From: Candidatus Paceibacter sp.
GTDB taxonomy: Bacteria; Patescibacteriota; Patescibacteriia; DYGC01
DNA: 37,556 bases
Assembly (NCBI GenBank): GCA_020724925.1
Contig: DYGC01000004.1
Location: 1 to 37,556, forward strand
Reading direction: 5' to 3'
The number at the start of each line of letters is the position of its first letter. Position 1 is the first letter of the stretch. The notes beneath the pieces were generated by a model that made no database searches, was not told the origin of the DNA, and worked only from the letters and a program-made list of their open reading frames with translations. The translations under genes and the position numbers were made by a program. Of the stretch, positions 8,507 through 22,345 are shown one piece after another.

Positions 8507-8593
8507 GGAGAGATGCCTGAGTGGTCGAAAGGGGCACCCTGCTAAGGTGTTATCTCAGAAATGGGATCGCGAGTTCGAATCTCGCTCTCTCCG
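8507..8593 (+). tRNA. tRNA-Ser(GCU)
   Basis: GGAGAGA...TCTCTCC acceptor, GCACC-CTGCTAA-GGTGT anticodon arm (GCT), long variable arm, GCGAG-TTCGAAT-CTCGC T-arm. Confidence 0.95.
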
Positions 8594-8639: not shown

Positions 8640-8718
8640 GGAACAGGATGAGAAGTTTACACCACCTGATTTTCATCAGGTCAGGCTCCGGGTGAATCCT
8701 GTTCTCTCCGCTAAAACG
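8640..8718 (+). repeat. Partial tRNA-Ser 3'-end-like repeat / hairpin
   Basis: GAACAGGAT...ATCCTGTTC stem; ends with TCTCTCCGCTAAAACG (8703-8718), an exact 16-bp direct repeat of the tRNA-Ser 3' end at 8586-8601. Confidence 0.65.
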
Positions 8719-9523
8719 GACTTTTAATATTCTTCAGTTTTGGATTAGTAACCTGCGTGTAAATCTGCGTAGTGCGAATATTACTATGCCCAAGAAGTTC
8801 TTGCACATAACGAACATCTGTTCCGTTCTCCAACAAATGCGTGGCAAATGAATGGCGTAAAGAATGAAAAGTCGCCTCTTTCATCACTTGAGCTTTGACC
8901 AAACTTTTACGAAACATTTTTTGCAATGAAGTGGTGGTCAATTTACCACCACGATTGGAAGCACAAACAAAATCATCTTTATTTTTACCGGCAATAAAAT
9001 TTCGCAAATCATTTTGTAATTTTTCCGGCAAAACGCTGATTCTGTCCTTTTTCCCCTTCCCTCCTTTGATATGAACCAGCAATTCATCAATATCCAAATC
9101 CGCCACTTTTAAATTGACAACTTCACTAACCCGCAAACCACAAGCATAGCCAAGAGAAATCATCAGTTTATATTTTGGATTATCAGTAACTTGAATGATT
9201 TTTTCAATTTCCACACGAGACAAAACCACCGGTAGTTTTTTGCTCCGTTTCGCATATTTCAAATCAATTTTCTGTGGATCTTTTAAAATTTCCGCATAAA
9301 AAAATTTCACCGCATTAAGGGCGAGATTTATAGTTTGCGACGATTGCTGACGATTAAGCTTATCTAGTAAAAAATCTTCAATCGCTTGTTGCTTGCTTTT
9401 GATTTCCGTTTTTTTGCAAAATTTGATATACTCTTTTATATAGAGCAAATAAGCTTTACGAGTTGCCGGAGAATAGTTACGCAAAAGCAAAATTTTGTTT
9501 GTTTTTTCTAAAATATTTTCCAT
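8711..9523 (-). CDS. XerC/D-family tyrosine recombinase/integrase
   Basis: Catalytic motifs GLRVSEV (Arg), HSLRHSFATHL (HxxR), LLGHSNIRTTQIYT (H...Y); N-terminal SAM-like core-binding domain. Start likely the internal Met (MENILEKTNK) at 9523. Confidence 0.93.
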   Translation of the reverse strand: MENILEKTNKILLLRNYSPATRKAYLLYIKEYIKFCKKTEIKSKQQAIEDFLLDKLNRQQSSQTINLALNAVKFFYAEILKDPQKIDLKYAKRSKKLPVVLSRVEIEKIIQVTDNPKYKLMISLGYACGLRVSEVVNLKVADLDIDELLVHIKGGKGKKDRISVLPEKLQNDLRNFIAGKNKDDFVCASNRGGKLTTTSLQKMFRKSLVKAQVMKEATFHSLRHSFATHLLENGTDVRYVQELLGHSNIRTTQIYTQVTNPKLKNIKSPF

Positions 9524-9599
9524 AAAGCAATCATAGCAAAAGTTTGCATAAGACACAAATTTTTGCTAGATTTAATATATGAAGGCTGGATAATAACCA

Positions 9600-9671
9600 G
9601 TTAGGCGAAATATTCCTTTTCTTTTTCGGGCTATCGCCCAATTGTTTTAAAAAATTTTCAAATTTCTTTTT
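9600..9671. repeat. Left inverted repeat of the defence block
   Basis: GTTAGGCGAAATATTCCTTTTCTTTTTCGGGCTATCGCCCAATTGTTTTAAAAAATTTTCAAATTTCTTTTTC; matches the reverse complement of 15681-15749. Confidence 0.8.
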
Positions 9672-9784
9672 CTTTTTTTATAAGGGGAAATTATGGTGTT
9701 TCCTCCGCTCCGCTACGGAAACGATTTATTTGATGAGGGGAATATATGGAGTTCCGCCTATCGGCGGAACGATCTAAAAAATAT

Positions 9785-9826
9785 TTGACAATATATTTAA
9801 CATACAGTACCATACAGAGTGTATGG
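9785..9826 (+). promoter_or_regulatory. Promoter and palindromic operator of the LexA-like gene
   Basis: TTGACA (9785-9790), 17-bp spacer, TACCAT (9808-9813); perfect palindrome CCATACA-GAG-TGTATGG (9810-9826) covers the ATG at 9823; extra CATACAG half-site at 9801-9807, 10 bp upstream of the same half-site. Confidence 0.7.
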
Positions 9827-10452
9827 ATAAAACAATAAATCTCACAACAAAAGAACTTGAAGCCACGCGACATATCCGCAACTGGCTGATACATCATGGA
9901 CGCACTCCCTCAGTACGTGAGCTTATGCGTGAGCTAAAATATAAGTCTCCTCGTTCAGTACAAGATTTATTAGAAAAGCTTGAAAGTAAGAAAATCATAC
10001 AGCGAACAAAGACCGGAAATATCCAATTGAAAAACGATCCAGAATCAACAGCTTCTCATGCTCAAACCATAAACGTACCTATTGTTGGAACAGTAGCCTG
10101 TGGCAATCCTATCTGGGCTGAAGAAAATATTGAAGGTTATGTTGCCGTTTCCACCTCCCTAGTAAAAACAGGATCAAGGTATTTTTTACTTCGTGCCTCC
10201 GGCGACTCAATGAACAAAGCAGGAATAAACGATGGCGATCTGGCATTAGTAAAACAACAGCCAACTGCCCAAAATGGTGATAAAGTAGTGGCACTTATTG
10301 ATGACGAAGCAACAATCAAAGAGTACAAGCACGCTGGCAAATCAATTATCCTACAGCCAAAATCAACAAACCTTAAACACTCGCCAATTATTCTTACCGA
10401 GGACTTCCAGATTCAAGGTGTTGTCGAGAATGTAATTTCTAACACTCAATAA
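9823..10452 (+). CDS. LexA-like repressor (winged HTH plus S24 autoprotease)
   Basis: LTTKELEATRHIRNWLIHHGRTPSVRELMRELKYKSPRSVQDLLEKLESKKII (LexA_DNA_bind-like); cleavage-like site VGTVACGNPI; catalytic Ser in SGDSMNKAGINDGD, catalytic Lys in ATIKEY. Confidence 0.9.
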   Translation: MDKTINLTTKELEATRHIRNWLIHHGRTPSVRELMRELKYKSPRSVQDLLEKLESKKIIQRTKTGNIQLKNDPESTASHAQTINVPIVGTVACGNPIWAEENIEGYVAVSTSLVKTGSRYFLLRASGDSMNKAGINDGDLALVKQQPTAQNGDKVVALIDDEATIKEYKHAGKSIILQPKSTNLKHSPIILTEDFQIQGVVENVISNTQ

Positions 10453-10454
10453 AT

Positions 10455-10694
10455 ATGTCGAACTATCACGTTACAAAAGCCAAACAAGGCGGTTGGTCAG
10501 CAAAAAAGGCAGGAGCGGAAAAAGCCGCTGGAATTTTCAATACTCAAGCGGAAGCTGAGAAAGCGGCTAAAATATTTTCCGCCAATAGTGGTGGTGGCGA
10601 AGTACGCATTCATGGCTTAAACGGAAAAATTAGAGATAGCGATACAGTGCCGCCAGCAAAAGACCCTAACCCACCAAAAGATACTAAACATTAA
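10455..10694 (+). CDS. DUF2188 domain protein
   Basis: GGWSAKKAGAEKAAGIFNTQAEAEKAAKIFSANSGGGEVRIHGLNGKIRDSDT matches the DUF2188 pattern (W.VK..GA..A...F.T..EA...A......GGGE..IHG.DGKIR..DT). Confidence 0.8.
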   Translation: MSNYHVTKAKQGGWSAKKAGAEKAAGIFNTQAEAEKAAKIFSANSGGGEVRIHGLNGKIRDSDTVPPAKDPNPPKDTKH

Positions 10695-10698
10695 AATT

Positions 10699-12639
10699 AT
10701 GGCAATTTCTTCAAAAGAAATCTTATCCAAAATCTTTAAAAATCCCGAGGACGACCTCGCGCTTTTTAGGAACTTGGACGTACTAGAATTTTACACCGAC
10801 GAAAAAGATCGAGTGTATGTAAAAACACTCGAATACAACGGAAAGGATAAGATTGTCTTAACGGACAAAAAAACTGCACCTGAAGAAATTGTACGTCAGT
10901 TATTTTTGCATGAACTTTTGCACGAATACAAATACCCCAAAGACAGAATCAAGTTAGAAGTCGATGTGCAATTTGGGCGTGAAGTAGGCAAAAAACGAGC
11001 CGACATTGTTGTTTATCGGGAAGACATGCAAACACCATATTTAATGGTAGAAGTTAAAAAACCAGATGTAAAAGACGGTTTGGGACAGCTGAAAAGCTAT
11101 GCGAACGCAACAGGTGCACCAATTTTGGTACTCACAGACGGAAAACTGCAAAATAACCTACTCCGAACCGACCCGAATCTATTTGAAGATTTACCTGACT
11201 TGCCAAAATTAAATGAAACAGTTGAAGACGTGCAAAAGAAAATCATTACTTTTGATGATCTTGAAGAAATCACCAACCTTAAACAGCTCATTCTTGACCT
11301 CGAAAATGCGGTACTGGCAAATGCCGGTGTTAATTCATTCGAAGAAATTTTTAAACTCATCCAAACAAAGCTCTATGACGAACTGGAAACACCAAGAAAT
11401 CAAAATCGCCGTTTCCGTGTAATTGCAGGCGCAAGCAATAAAGAAAACCTAGATAACATTTCTCGTTTGTTCGCGGAATCCAAAAACCAATGGCGAGACG
11501 TATTCAAAGAAAAAGACGACATTGAAATCCCAGCCAATGCCATTGTGCCAGCCATTTCTCTTTTGCAGAAATATAGACTTTTTGGCTCAAATCTGCAAGT
11601 TATTGACGACGCTTTCGAGTATCTCATCAACCAAGATGCAAAAGGTGGAAAAGGTCAGTATTTTACGCCACGTTTTGTGATTGATATGTGCGTCAGAATG
11701 CTAAATCCCAAAAAGAACGAAAACATTGTGGATACAGCTTCGGGCAGTTGTGGATTTTTGCTTCATGCCATGCAACATGTTTGGAGAACTGAAATCACCG
11801 AGGAAAATTATGGCAATAGCTATGAACTAAAACGTAAAGAATACGCCGATCAACACTTATTCGGCATTGATTTTGACCCACGAAGCGTAAAAATCGGTAA
11901 AGCGATGATGTTGATTGCAGGAGATGGAAAAACAAACGTCACCTATGCAAACTCACTTGATAGCGAGCTTTGGGATGGTGAAGCAAAAGCACGATTTAGC
12001 AAACTCTTACACCGTTTTGACGATTTTGACTTAAACACAAAGAACAGAGAGAAAATGACGGATTTTGATTTTGATATTGTAATGACAAATCCACCCTTTG
12101 CAGGTGAAGTTAAAGGAACGCTACTTAATAAATATGATCTTGGTTTCAAGTATGACAAGAATTTTGAGCGTACCAACAAGCACCAGAACAAAATGACACG
12201 TGATATTTTGTTTATCGAGCGAAACCTTGATTTTCTCCGTCCAGGCGGTCGCATGGCGATTGTTTTGCCTCAAGGGGTCTTTAACAATACAAATCAAGAA
12301 TACATTCGGCGCTACATTATGAAACGCGCACGTCTTTTCGCCGTGGTCGGATTGCATGGCAACACATTCAAGCCACACACAGGCACAAAAACTAGCGTAC
12401 TTTTTTTACAAAAATGGCATGACGACAAAGAAAGAGAAAAAGCAGGAAATTATCCTATTTTTATGGCAACCAGCGAAAAGCCAGGGAAAAACAACAGTGG
12501 TGAATACGTCTATGCAATGGATGAAAACGGCAATATCAAAAAGAATGCGAACGGAGCCTATGTTTATGATACGGATTTAGACGTAATAGCAAACAAGTTT
12601 GTTGAGTTTGCTGAAAAAAATAATTTCGACTTTATTTGA
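10699..12639 (+). CDS. R-M protein: N-terminal HSDR_N-like PD-(D/E)XK nuclease fused to HsdM-type N6-adenine methyltransferase (BcgI-A-like)
   Basis: RADIVVYREDMQTPYLMVEVKKP (nuclease D...ExK); DTASGSCGFLLHAM (SAM motif I); DIVMTNPPFAGEV (NPPF motif IV); GGRMAIVLPQGVFNN. Confidence 0.88.
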   Translation: MAISSKEILSKIFKNPEDDLALFRNLDVLEFYTDEKDRVYVKTLEYNGKDKIVLTDKKTAPEEIVRQLFLHELLHEYKYPKDRIKLEVDVQFGREVGKKRADIVVYREDMQTPYLMVEVKKPDVKDGLGQLKSYANATGAPILVLTDGKLQNNLLRTDPNLFEDLPDLPKLNETVEDVQKKIITFDDLEEITNLKQLILDLENAVLANAGVNSFEEIFKLIQTKLYDELETPRNQNRRFRVIAGASNKENLDNISRLFAESKNQWRDVFKEKDDIEIPANAIVPAISLLQKYRLFGSNLQVIDDAFEYLINQDAKGGKGQYFTPRFVIDMCVRMLNPKKNENIVDTASGSCGFLLHAMQHVWRTEITEENYGNSYELKRKEYADQHLFGIDFDPRSVKIGKAMMLIAGDGKTNVTYANSLDSELWDGEAKARFSKLLHRFDDFDLNTKNREKMTDFDFDIVMTNPPFAGEVKGTLLNKYDLGFKYDKNFERTNKHQNKMTRDILFIERNLDFLRPGGRMAIVLPQGVFNNTNQEYIRRYIMKRARLFAVVGLHGNTFKPHTGTKTSVLFLQKWHDDKEREKAGNYPIFMATSEKPGKNNSGEYVYAMDENGNIKKNANGAYVYDTDLDVIANKFVEFAEKNNFDFI

Positions 12640-12640
12640 T

Positions 12641-13993
12641 ATGGCACAAATAGCAATAATAAACATCAACGACTTGGGAATGGCAGTGCGCTTTGACGCA
12701 CAGTTTTATCAACCCAAGTATTTAATTGATACAAGCAAGGGTAAATGGCTCAAAATAAAGGACGTTCTTAAAAAATGTGAGTATGGTCTTTCTCTCGCGA
12801 TGAATGACGAAAAACAAGGTGTGCCGATGTTTAAGATGGACGATATTAGCCATGCTTTTCTCGTTTCGGACAATGTAAGGTATGCCGAAGTAAGCGACAG
12901 CGAGCACAAGCGTTTTAAATGCAAAGTCAACGATGTTTTTTTTAATAGGGTCAACTCGGAAGAATTTGTAGGAAGGACAGGTATTTTTAAAGATTCAAAT
13001 TCAGATTCCGTTTTTGCTTCATATTTAATCAGATTACAAACAAAAGATGACTTAGTTCTACCTCAATTTCTAAACATATTTTTAAACTCAAAATTCGGGC
13101 AAAAACAAATTGATCGCTATAAAAGACGGGCTGTTAATCAGGCAAACGTAAACGCTCAAGAATTGCAGGAGTTTTTTATACCAGTTCCAGCAATTAGCTC
13201 TCAAAGAAAAATAGCCGATTTGGTAGATGAATCATGGCAACAGCTTGAAAAATCAAAAACATTTTATAAAAAAGCAGAGCAAACTTTACTTCAAGAGCTT
13301 GAACTTGAAGATTTTATACCAAAATGGTCAGACGGGTATGAGTCTGATTTTGAAAGCGTCATAAATATTTTCCGCATAGACGCTGAATATTTTCAGCCGA
13401 AATATAGAGCTATCGAGACGAAAATTAAAGAATACAAGCACGGTTGGGATTATCTGCCAAAATTGATTGAGATTTCAAAAGAAAAAATCAAAATTGAGCC
13501 TGAAAAAAAATATGAATATGTGGAATTGGCTGATATAAATGCCTCCATCGGCATTGTAGATAGTACAAGTACAATTTTTGGGGCAGATTTACCAAGTCGT
13601 GCACAAATGAAGCTACGAAAAGACGATGTTGTAGTTTCTTCGGTGGAAGGATCAATTGATAAAGTCGGGTTGATTTTGAGTGAAGACGAAAATCTTGTTG
13701 GCTCAACAGGCTTTCATATTCTCAGATCAAAAGGATTTTCACCCGAAGTAAATTTAATTCTTTGCAAAAGCCCTGTTTTGCAGCACTTATTTATTCGTGA
13801 AGCCTCCGGAACAATCCTAACAGCCGTTTCCAGTAACTCCCTTGGCAATATTGTTGTGCCAAAACTAGCTAAAGCAGTGCAACAAGAAATTACAAAACTT
13901 GTACAAGAAAGCCATAAATGCGTACTTGAATCACGACAGCTCCTTGAACAGGCAAAGCGAGAAGTAGAGGAAATGATTGAATCTAAAGCCTAG
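12641..13993 (+). CDS. Type I/BcgI-like specificity subunit (HsdS-like) with two target-recognition repeats
   Basis: Internal repeat VRFDAQFYQPKY / FRIDAEYFQPKY at the start of each half; IPVPAISSQRKIADLVDESW and KLAKAVQQEITKLVQES helices. ATG at 12641 is directly after the upstream stop. Confidence 0.85.
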   Translation: MAQIAIININDLGMAVRFDAQFYQPKYLIDTSKGKWLKIKDVLKKCEYGLSLAMNDEKQGVPMFKMDDISHAFLVSDNVRYAEVSDSEHKRFKCKVNDVFFNRVNSEEFVGRTGIFKDSNSDSVFASYLIRLQTKDDLVLPQFLNIFLNSKFGQKQIDRYKRRAVNQANVNAQELQEFFIPVPAISSQRKIADLVDESWQQLEKSKTFYKKAEQTLLQELELEDFIPKWSDGYESDFESVINIFRIDAEYFQPKYRAIETKIKEYKHGWDYLPKLIEISKEKIKIEPEKKYEYVELADINASIGIVDSTSTIFGADLPSRAQMKLRKDDVVVSSVEGSIDKVGLILSEDENLVGSTGFHILRSKGFSPEVNLILCKSPVLQHLFIREASGTILTAVSSNSLGNIVVPKLAKAVQQEITKLVQESHKCVLESRQLLEQAKREVEEMIESKA

Positions 13994-14006
13994 CTAACTA
14001 TAAATT

Positions 14007-14939
14007 ATGATCTCCGAGCAACAATTACAAACATGGGCATCCGCGCCAGCAGCGAGTAAATTCAAATATACTCATGAAGAGGTACGAAAAGCGCTTGCGA
14101 ATTACTTGCCCGACTTTGCAAAAAGCAATCATGGCTACGAATTAAAAAACGAAAATTACGAAGTTTATTTGCAAGGTTCTTATGCAAACAGCACAAACAT
14201 TACTGGCGAAAGCGATGTTGATATTGTTATTGAGTTAAACTCAATATTTTCTTACGACATAGATCAACTGACGGACGAAGAAAAACAAACTTTTCATTCT
14301 TTTTATTCTAGCCCCAGCCAATATAAATTTGCTCAATTCAAAAAAGACGTATTTGCTTCTTTGGAAAAATATTTTTCAAAAACCACGCTTGAATATGGAG
14401 CTAAAAGTTTAAAAATACCGAAAAACAGCTCTCGAGTTAATGCCGATGTAATTCCAGCATTTCACCATAGAAAATATGGTCGTTTTACTTACTACACCAT
14501 TGATCAGTATGTGTCTGGCATAAAATTATATAACACAAAAACAAACGATCTGATTATCAATTACCCAAAAGAACACAAAAAAAACTGCGAAGCCCTCAAT
14601 CATGACACAGAAGGAAAGTTCAAGGATTCAATAAGGATTTTCAAAAATTTCAGAAAACAACTAAAGCAAAAAGATGAGATTGATGACTCTTTGGCACCGT
14701 CATATTTTATTGAGAATTTGATTTACAACTGTCCAGCTCCTGTTTTCAACGGAAGCTATCAGAACATTGTGATTAACATATTGCAAAACGTTCTAAATGA
14801 CTCCGAAAATGGATCTCTCCAATATTACAAATGTGCAAATGGTCAAGACATGCTTTTTCTATCAAAACACACTTGGAATACAGATGATGCAATGAGCTTT
14901 GTTACAAAGTGTGCAAATTTAGTCCTCGAAAAAATATGA
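14007..14939 (+). CDS. CD-NTase (cGAS/DncV-like nucleotidyltransferase), CBASS
   Basis: GSYANSTNITGESDVDIVIEL (GS...DxD, D70/D72) and third acidic motif NADVIPAF (D147), with flanking sequence typical of the SMODS/CD-NTase superfamily. Confidence 0.88.
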   Translation: MISEQQLQTWASAPAASKFKYTHEEVRKALANYLPDFAKSNHGYELKNENYEVYLQGSYANSTNITGESDVDIVIELNSIFSYDIDQLTDEEKQTFHSFYSSPSQYKFAQFKKDVFASLEKYFSKTTLEYGAKSLKIPKNSSRVNADVIPAFHHRKYGRFTYYTIDQYVSGIKLYNTKTNDLIINYPKEHKKNCEALNHDTEGKFKDSIRIFKNFRKQLKQKDEIDDSLAPSYFIENLIYNCPAPVFNGSYQNIVINILQNVLNDSENGSLQYYKCANGQDMLFLSKHTWNTDDAMSFVTKCANLVLEKI

Positions 14940-15556
14940 CAAAACTTAACCTTAAAAAGATCGTTTCAATATCGGTACTACTAACATTTGCTTTTTATGC
15001 TATAAGCAACCAGTTTCCAAATTTGGATTTTTGGAAATATAGCATTGTATCAGCAGTAATCTTTTTAATCCTATATTTGCTAAATTATCTCTACGAAAAT
15101 TACTTTTGGAATAAGCACTGGATCATAAAGAAAATTTTTATCCTATTAGGCTTTCAAGAATACCCTAATATCGTGGGTAAGTGGGAAATGGATTATTTCA
15201 GTTCTTATAAATATGACTGGGAAAAGTCAAAATACATTACGACCGGAAAGGGTGACGTTATTATCAAAAAAATAGAGGGAGGCTTTTTATATAGTGGGAA
15301 ATTTGGCGAGTCTGAATTTAAAAGCTCATCAAATTATTTTGAAAGAAACAAAGATGATCAGCAAGAATGGATACTGGGTTATAAATACACAAACAACCCT
15401 AATGAAACCAATGTATCTGAAACAGGCTTTGTAGGACATTGTGGATTTTCAATACTGAATTTTGACCAGGAAAAGCCAAAAGAAATGACAGGCTTTTATG
15501 GAAATGATGAAAACAGAAAAACAAGAGGAAAAATGGTTCTAAAAAAGAAGAAGTAG
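14936..15556 (+). CDS. Cap15-like CBASS effector (two TM helices plus beta-rich domain)
   Basis: ATGA overlap with the CD-NTase stop. TM1 IVSISVLLTFAFYAIS, TM2 YSIVSAVIFLILYLLNYLY; C-terminal pattern YPNIVGKWEM...YKYTNNPN...HCGFSIL...KEMTGFYGNDENRKTRGKMVL matches the Cap15 / SMODS-associated 2TM-beta family style. Confidence 0.82.
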   Translation: MTKLNLKKIVSISVLLTFAFYAISNQFPNLDFWKYSIVSAVIFLILYLLNYLYENYFWNKHWIIKKIFILLGFQEYPNIVGKWEMDYFSSYKYDWEKSKYITTGKGDVIIKKIEGGFLYSGKFGESEFKSSSNYFERNKDDQQEWILGYKYTNNPNETNVSETGFVGHCGFSILNFDQEKPKEMTGFYGNDENRKTRGKMVLKKKK

Positions 15557-15557
15557 A

Positions 15558-15687
15558 GGTTTTCGGTCGGGGCAATTCACCCCTTTTGTTCCCCTCTTGC
15601 CCCTCCCTCAAACAGAAATAGGAGTTTTGGGCTTCGGGCATTCACCCCTTTAATTCCCCTCTGCCCACCACCCAAAACGGAAAAAGA
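15558..15687. repeat. Two tandem ~65-bp imperfect repeats
   Basis: TTTT-CGGTCGGGGCAATTCACCCCTTTTGTTCCCCTCTTGCCC.. and TTTTGGGCTTCGGGC-ATTCACCCCTTTAATTCCCCTCT-GCCC.., both hairpin-forming (GGGGCAA/TTGCCCC; GGGC/GCCC). Confidence 0.75.
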
Positions 15688-15749
15688 AATTTGAAAATTT
15701 TTAAAACAACCGACTATCGTCGGAAAAGAAAAGGAATACATCAGCTAAC
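15681..15749. repeat. Right inverted repeat of the defence block
   Basis: Reverse complement GTTAGCTGATGTATTCCTTTTCTTTTCCGACGATAGTCGGTTGTTTTAAAAATTTTCAAATTTCTTTTT aligns along its length with 9600-9671. Confidence 0.8.
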
Positions 15750-15868
15750 ACTGCGTATGCGGCTACGGCTTGCTCCGTTCCTCCGCAAGCCTCCACCCAT
15801 ATTTGCCAGTGGTAAGCACTTCGTGCAATTATACCACTGGCAAACATCGCATACTCAGAAACGTTAGC
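15744..15868. repeat. 125-nt attC-like imperfect palindrome
   Basis: Ends GCTAAC...GTTAGC; stem continues CTG/CAG and GTATGCG/CGCATAC, broken by a 1-vs-4 nt asymmetric loop and one mismatch; large central stem TTTGCCAGTGGTA/TACCACTGGCAAA (about 15802-15844). Confidence 0.55.
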
Positions 15869-15891
15869 AAAAAAAATTAACATTAATTCAT

Positions 15892-21900: not shown

Positions 21901-21988
21901 AGGCTGGAATTAACCAAACACCCGAATTCACCTGGCCACTTGTCTTATTATTGCCAAAAATCAATTATTCTTTTAAAATACTAGCACT

Positions 21989-22216
21989 GGAGAGATGCCT
22001 GAGTGGTTGAAAGGGACGGTCTTGAAAACCGTTAGCTGTGTTGAACGGCTCGAGGGTTCGGGGAATCGAGCGGATGAGCGAAATGGCAAAGCTTGCTTTG
22101 ACATTTCCCCCGGCTATAATTTACCGTTATTACTAAATCACGTGCCGGGGCAGGCTAAGCGATGATTGCCCTGGCAGCCGAGCGTAGCGAGGATGACAGT
22201 ATCCCGCTCTCTCCGC
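21989..22216 (+). pseudogene. tRNA-Ser(UGA) copy interrupted in the T-loop by ~140 nt
   Basis: 21989-22060 is identical to the first 72 nt of the intact tRNA at 22258; after GGTTCG the sequence diverges for ~140 nt and resumes with ATCCCGCTCTCTCCGC. Confidence 0.85.
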
Positions 22217-22257
22217 AAAAAGTTTTTTCACAATTTGTAAAATTTCATTAAAAATCT

Positions 22258-22345
22258 GGAGAGATGCCTGAGTGGTTGAAAGGGACGGTCTTGAAAACCG
22301 TTAGCTGTGTTGAACGGCTCGAGGGTTCGAATCCCTCTCTCTCCG
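22258..22345 (+). tRNA. tRNA-Ser(UGA)
   Basis: GGAGAGA/TCTCTCC acceptor; ACGGT-CTTGAAA-ACCGT anticodon arm (TGA); GAGGG-TTCGAAT-CCCTC T-arm. Confidence 0.95.

Follow-up and report, generated by a model that had tools for sequence, protein, structure and literature searches.

In integrons, the last bases of the R' box come from the next cassette, so that an R'' box is expected to agree with the 5' end of the cassette to which it belongs. Acinetobacter pdif/Xer modules depend on the host XerCD and on short double-stranded dif sites, not on long folded attC sites. I2 docks extrahelical bases, and IntI1 has been reported to need it for capturing cassettes (PMC7790495, citing Messier and Roy 2001). 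I2 has been treated as the innovation that made integrons possible, and the lack of intermediates has been noted (PMC4792948, PMC7790495). The extra IntI domain is used in integron definitions and as a survey filter (PMC7784347, PMC2426708), and a group without I2 would therefore be missed. In CTXphi, an I2-less Xer pair recombines a folded single-stranded hairpin (PMC4792948). Our search of the open-access literature, with preprints and most subscription journals outside its scope, found no publication on integrons in Patescibacteria.

We analysed a 37,556-nt stretch of DNA from Candidatus Paceibacter sp. (the window). It contains a putative recombinase, an attI-like site and a block of genes ending in an attC-like palindrome:

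8711..9556, - strand: tyrosine recombinase of 281 aa, integron-integrase-like, without I2 (PF00589, TIGR02249, 2A3V, alignment gap at I2)
9573..9611, + strand: attI-like site, inferred crossover G9600^T9601 (score 19/23 to the attI consensus)
9600..9678, + strand: cassette 5' end, left inverted repeat and small hairpin (repeats I1/I6, paired with 15674-15749)
9785..9825, + strand: promoter-like site TTGACA-17-TACCAT and palindrome CATACAGAGTGTATG (consensus matches only)
9823..10452, + strand: LexA-like repressor/peptidase S24 (TIGR00498, 162.8 bits)
10455..10694, + strand: DUF2188 protein, phage-defence candidate PDC-S16 (Pfam, PADLOC)
10699..12639, + strand: N6 DNA methyltransferase with HSDR_N domain (PF02384, PF13588; PADLOC MTase_I, 618 bits)
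12599..13993, + strand: type I specificity (HsdS-like) subunit (Pfam, NCBIfam, PADLOC)
14007..14939, + strand: CBASS-type oligonucleotide cyclase (PADLOC Cyclase, 298 bits)
14909..15556, + strand: two-transmembrane CBASS effector, Cap15-like (PF18153; PADLOC 2TM effector)
15674..15749, + strand: right inverted repeat, continuing into the R'' box (inverted-repeat match, repeat family)
15738..15874, + strand: attC-like recombination site (covariance model R1, folding, family covariation)

The attC-like palindrome and its family

A first-pass annotation of this DNA had described a 125-nt palindrome at the 3' end of the block, and its termini were found where claimed (GCTAAC, 15744-15749; GTTAGC, 15863-15868). 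We assigned the R'' box AGCTAAC to 15743-15749 and the R' box GTTAGCA to 15863-15869, with an inferred crossover at G15863^T15864. Folding of both strands as ssDNA gave -28.8 kcal/mol for the top strand (z -6.3) and -34.9 kcal/mol for the bottom strand (z -7.6); none of 200 dinucleotide shuffles equalled the fold on either strand. The boxes had been called imperfect matches to the integron consensus. They do differ from strict RYYYAAC/GTTRRRY, which is the norm in the family described below, where only about 17-20% of sites fit both boxes strictly.

Homologues of the palindrome were absent from the rest of its own genome, which holds a single copy and is incomplete (0.68 Mb, the window being one contig), and were abundant in relatives. 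BLASTN with the window site detected homologues in 31 of 95 genomes of the same class. R1, a covariance model built from an alignment of 23 related sites, found 87 sites in 21 loci and, searched against the 95 genomes, matched 48, with up to 23 sites per genome. An absence of other copies, which would have counted against the first-pass proposal, is thus ruled out. The window site scored 102.2 bits against R1 (E 1.4e-19; R1 E-values are rough), having itself been among the 23 sites used for building the model. Across the phylum, 42 of 240 sampled genomes were positive (E up to 1e-6), and a strict DNA pattern retrieved at least 118 stretches. Most of these came from Patescibacteria; a few carried Omnitrophota, Cloacimonadota, Bacteroidota or archaeal labels, some of which may reflect mis-binning. 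Nearly all comparative data are MAGs. R1 matched no site on class 1 integron plasmids and was rejected as a general attC model.

The consensus read from the 23-site alignment was ACATC-NNN-TAAC-A-stem-...-stem-RAAC-GTTANNN-GAAAT, and it included a small hairpin on one side as well as a conserved TCCACCCATA stretch; across the family the box consensus is ACATC-NNN-TAAC / GTTANNN-GAAAT. In the named structure 92.7% of cells were paired and 18 of 26 pairs showed two-sided change. The covariation score was 0.408, as compared with 0.140 for shuffled alignments (0/500) and at most 0.118 for slid structures. The structure was partly drawn from the same sequences, which inflates pairing and scarcely affects two-sided changes. 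The bottom strand, which is the one that integrons recombine, folded better in 96 of 103 sites of the class set, and neighbours within arrays were always in the same orientation (same:opposite, 151:0). No single flipped-out base was seen in the R-L stem of family sites; a large one-sided bulge is present.

The same site family occurs on contigs labelled archaeal (L137, L166, L172, L181 and L200). L137 (Altarchaeum) carries a related recombinase and three sites, and L166 (Pacearchaeota) a recombinase 66% identical to that of the window; these occurrences may reflect either real transfer or mis-binning. An IMG/VR contig (L252:10684-10795) carries a strong R1 site (107.8 bits), which points to possible carriage of such cassettes by viral or plasmid-like DNA. 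On a Pontibacter kalidii plasmid (L242:3410-8510), the gene for a recombinase 37.8% identical precedes small ORFs that have attC-like palindromes on their 3' side, with weak R1 matches; Bacteroidota may also have related recombinases with attC-like sites. An Rfam scan of the window returned tRNAs only and left the palindrome unmatched. A tRNA-like 74-nt sequence is found in two identical copies 269 bp apart (21987-22060 and 22256-22329) with more repeats around; Rfam calls a tRNA only at the second copy (22258-22345), and a further tRNA at 8507-8593 shares part of the sequence.

The divergent recombinase and its attI-like site

The recombinase belongs to the Pfam Phage_integrase family (PF00589) and has an alternative ATG start at 9523. 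Its best NCBIfam match is TIGR02249, at 223.9 bits and under the cut-off of 265. The nearest solved structure, by sequence and by fold, is IntI4 (2A3V), and the sequence match splits at I2; the fold search used an AlphaFold2 model with a mean pLDDT of 86.3 and a modest pTM of 0.65. Aligned to IntI1, the protein lacks about 50 residues around I2, with only a few present there, bearing out the earlier remark that no IntI-specific insertion is obvious. Relatives also lack I2, with TIGR02249 matches split at 178/237, and no IntI above the TIGR02249 cut-off was found in the 95 genomes of the class. The catalytic R-K-H-R-H-Y residues are invariant in an alignment of 17 sequences, and all of the motif patterns are satisfied by 37 of 43 relatives.

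A tree of 72 proteins placed the short recombinases with IntI, which formed its own clade, and separated both from the Patescibacteria Xer genes (100/97). The possibility that the enzyme is simply the chromosomal dimer-resolution Xer, which would have refuted the first-pass proposal, is not borne out, since it groups with integron integrases and not with the Patescibacteria Xer clade. With only four IntI, few outgroups and a midpoint root, the tree is thinly sampled, and the absence of I2 may be either ancestral or a loss. A second Xer-like gene, a 315-aa open frame with a weaker match, is present in the same genome (G000:C20).

Sites and recombinases were closely associated. AttC-like sites lay within 10 kb of 10 of 20 short recombinases and of none of 20 other Xer genes. 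Sites were present in 34 of 39 genomes with a recombinase (listed matches of at least 100 bits) versus 14 of 56 without (p 1.4e-9). The exceptions, 5 of the 39 recombinase-bearing genomes without a site and the 14 genomes with sites and no detected recombinase, possibly stem from fragmented assemblies or model misses.

The GTTAGGC motif noted near the recombinase was confirmed at 9600-9606, 77 bp from the ATG start (9523) and 44 bp from the GTG start of the divergent gene; it is the junction of attI with the cassette 5' end. An upstream site scoring at least 14/23 against the attI consensus TTCGCATAATAACGAG^TTANNNGAAAT was found for 29 of 47 recombinases, compared with 4% of shuffled sequence; the consensus was partly read from the same sequences, and this count is not fully independent. 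For most recombinases, the conserved attI-like site is located 41-175 bp upstream of the start. Wherever an array and a recombinase shared a stretch (21 arrays), the gene diverged from the array; most have an attI-like GTT site 44-116 bp from the recombinase, and 12 of these sites match the R'' of the first attC exactly. The left inverted repeat was also considered as attI itself; this reading was discarded, since most of attI is to the left of 9600 and the repeat is part of the cassette. A palindrome scan saw no LexA-type operator at the recombinase promoter.

The window cassette and exchange within GTT

A single cassette of 6.3 kb spans 9601-15863. The first-pass annotation had considered this cargo unusually large, and it is: the family median is about 0.8 kb (825 bp, n=93 cassettes). 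In the same 93 cassettes, 91% of ORFs point with the attC. The window cassette is predicted, from its translated genes, to carry a restriction-modification-like operon, a CBASS pair and a LexA-like regulator; cargo in other cassettes includes Fic, restriction-modification, methyltransferases and other enzymes. The perfect palindrome (9811-9825) overlaps the start of the LexA-like gene, and the only mismatch-free CATACA-N3-TGTATG palindrome sits at this gene; it is possibly the gene's own putative operator.

Both ends of the block are linked by inverted repeats of about 60 nt, which had previously gone unremarked. The sequence of their small hairpin varies and its pairing is kept. Repeat-bearing sites are a minority in relatives (11/103); among the repeat-bearing cassettes that were examined, several have restriction-modification or defence-like cargo. 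The left repeat was not picked up by a simple terminator scan, and a terminator or insulator role remains unproven.

Past exchange was assessed by comparing the four variable bases of R'' with GTTNNNN at the cassette 5' boundary, after removal of known duplicates. For the class set, R'' agreed exactly with the start of its own cassette in 33 of 55 cases (10,000 permutations: mean 3.9, maximum 13); a largely independent named set gave 33 of 63 (permutation mean 4.4, maximum 14); a first version of the test had given 30/52 versus 3.5. R'' agreed with the R' of the same site only at chance level (6/55 and 4/63, respectively). We read the match between R'' and cassette, which is the pattern expected of integron-type crossover at G^TT, as evidence of past site-specific exchange within GTT; these statistics resolve the cut no finer than GTT. 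In the window cassette, the 5' boundary GTTAGGC and the reverse complement of R'', GTTAGCT, agree at only two of four variable positions; the inverted repeats nevertheless tie the two ends of the block together.

Mechanism, alternatives and known systems

Collectively, the arrays, the attI, exchange at G^TT and a divergent recombinase without an IntI-specific insertion sustain the first-pass proposal of a cassette system with attC-like sites, driven by an Xer-type enzyme and distinct from canonical integrons. We give a probability of roughly 85% to the window being a one-cassette integron-like platform, whose recombinase exchanges G^TT at attI and at a hairpin attC; recombination is untested. 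The dedicated divergent recombinase would exchange strands at G^TT in the adjacent attI (9573-9611) and in the hairpin attC, and a circular cassette with one attC would insert at attI. Each cassette would run 5' TTNNNN ... 3' NNNNAAC-hairpin-G. The recombinase is inferred to read the duplex R and L arms of the folded bottom-strand attC, as XerCD does on the folded CTXphi site; this recognition is favoured because, in CTXphi, a folded hairpin is recombined by an Xer pair that has no I2 (PMC4792948). The conserved bulge perhaps gives direction. As I2 is reported to be necessary for capture in IntI1, strand use may differ in an I2-less system. The site family, arrays, orientation, attI, exchange point within GTT and missing I2 can be read from DNA and predicted proteins alone, whereas the strand used, the circular intermediate and present-day activity are only inferred. 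The best-supported mechanism is probably one in which attI captures a circular cassette by way of its folded attC.

The main rival is a purely double-strand mechanism, where the recombinase would act only on dsDNA resembling dif, namely attI and the L'-R' half of attC, with the hairpin otherwise employed. The attI consensus resembles Xer dif by eye, and the 3' half of attC often has similar TCGCATA and GTT boxes; the strong compensatory change in the stem and the asymmetry between strands (96/103) suggest selection for the folded form, and we consider this mechanism unlikely, without dismissing it. A canonical integron, in which a normal IntI would move ordinary cassettes and the short recombinase would be incidental, would share the site logic and layout and would suit those sites that fit RYYYAAC/GTTRRRY exactly. 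It is very hard to reconcile with the lack of an above-cut-off IntI (0/95 genomes), with short recombinases near the sites that have no I2, and with an attI-like site bearing cassette-specific matches immediately before the start of the short recombinase gene.

A transposon or MITE could also be suggested by the inverted repeats that bound the block, the 60-nt repeats being the ends of a transposable defence element. The repeat adjoins only 11 of 103 sites, no transposase was identified among the genes of the block by Pfam, NCBIfam or PADLOC, and the boundaries coincide with G^TT, which makes this account highly improbable. The position 3' of genes and the good fold would also suit an RNA element or terminator hairpin with no recombination role; we give this idea almost no credence, as the palindrome has no Rfam match and the rule linking R'' to the cassette 5' end has no RNA explanation.

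On sequence criteria, the integron-like platform qualifies as an I2-less integron variant, integron-like in its predicted working and failing one defining test, I2. That such platforms descend from a pre-I2 stage, with folded attC and capture arising first, with an Xer-like enzyme and a dif-like attI, is a tentative idea that we doubt more than we believe. If true, it would answer the published chicken-and-egg paradox of whether attC or I2 came first. If an attC system works without I2, the order of events in integron evolution would become testable. The system would also give very small genomes a route for exchanging defence and other genes.

The system shares with class 1 and sedentary chromosomal integrons a divergent recombinase, an adjacent attI, same-orientation and mostly one-ORF cassettes, hairpin attC sites with R''/R', G^TT exchange, a more foldable bottom strand and a recombinase nearest to IntI4. 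Unlike in integrons, the Patescibacteria recombinase has no I2, the box consensus is relaxed and extended, the attI resembles dif, and the sites have a conserved one-sided hairpin and TCCACCCATA bulge, R1 missing class 1 attC. Archaeal integrons (Ghaly 2022, PMC9668308) likewise lie outside the usual phyla, with attC arrays in MAGs, and a few archaeal-labelled contigs share the site family; archaeal IntIs, however, are described with the IntI-specific additional domain (PMC9668308). XerCD/dif and CTXphi integration also employ an I2-less tyrosine recombinase, CTXphi being the folded-hairpin precedent (PMC4792948), but the system described here has a dedicated recombinase beside its own attI, multi-cassette arrays and a clade separate from Patescibacteria Xer. 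With the Acinetobacter pdif/Xer modules it has in common cassette-like movement by an I2-less Xer-type enzyme.
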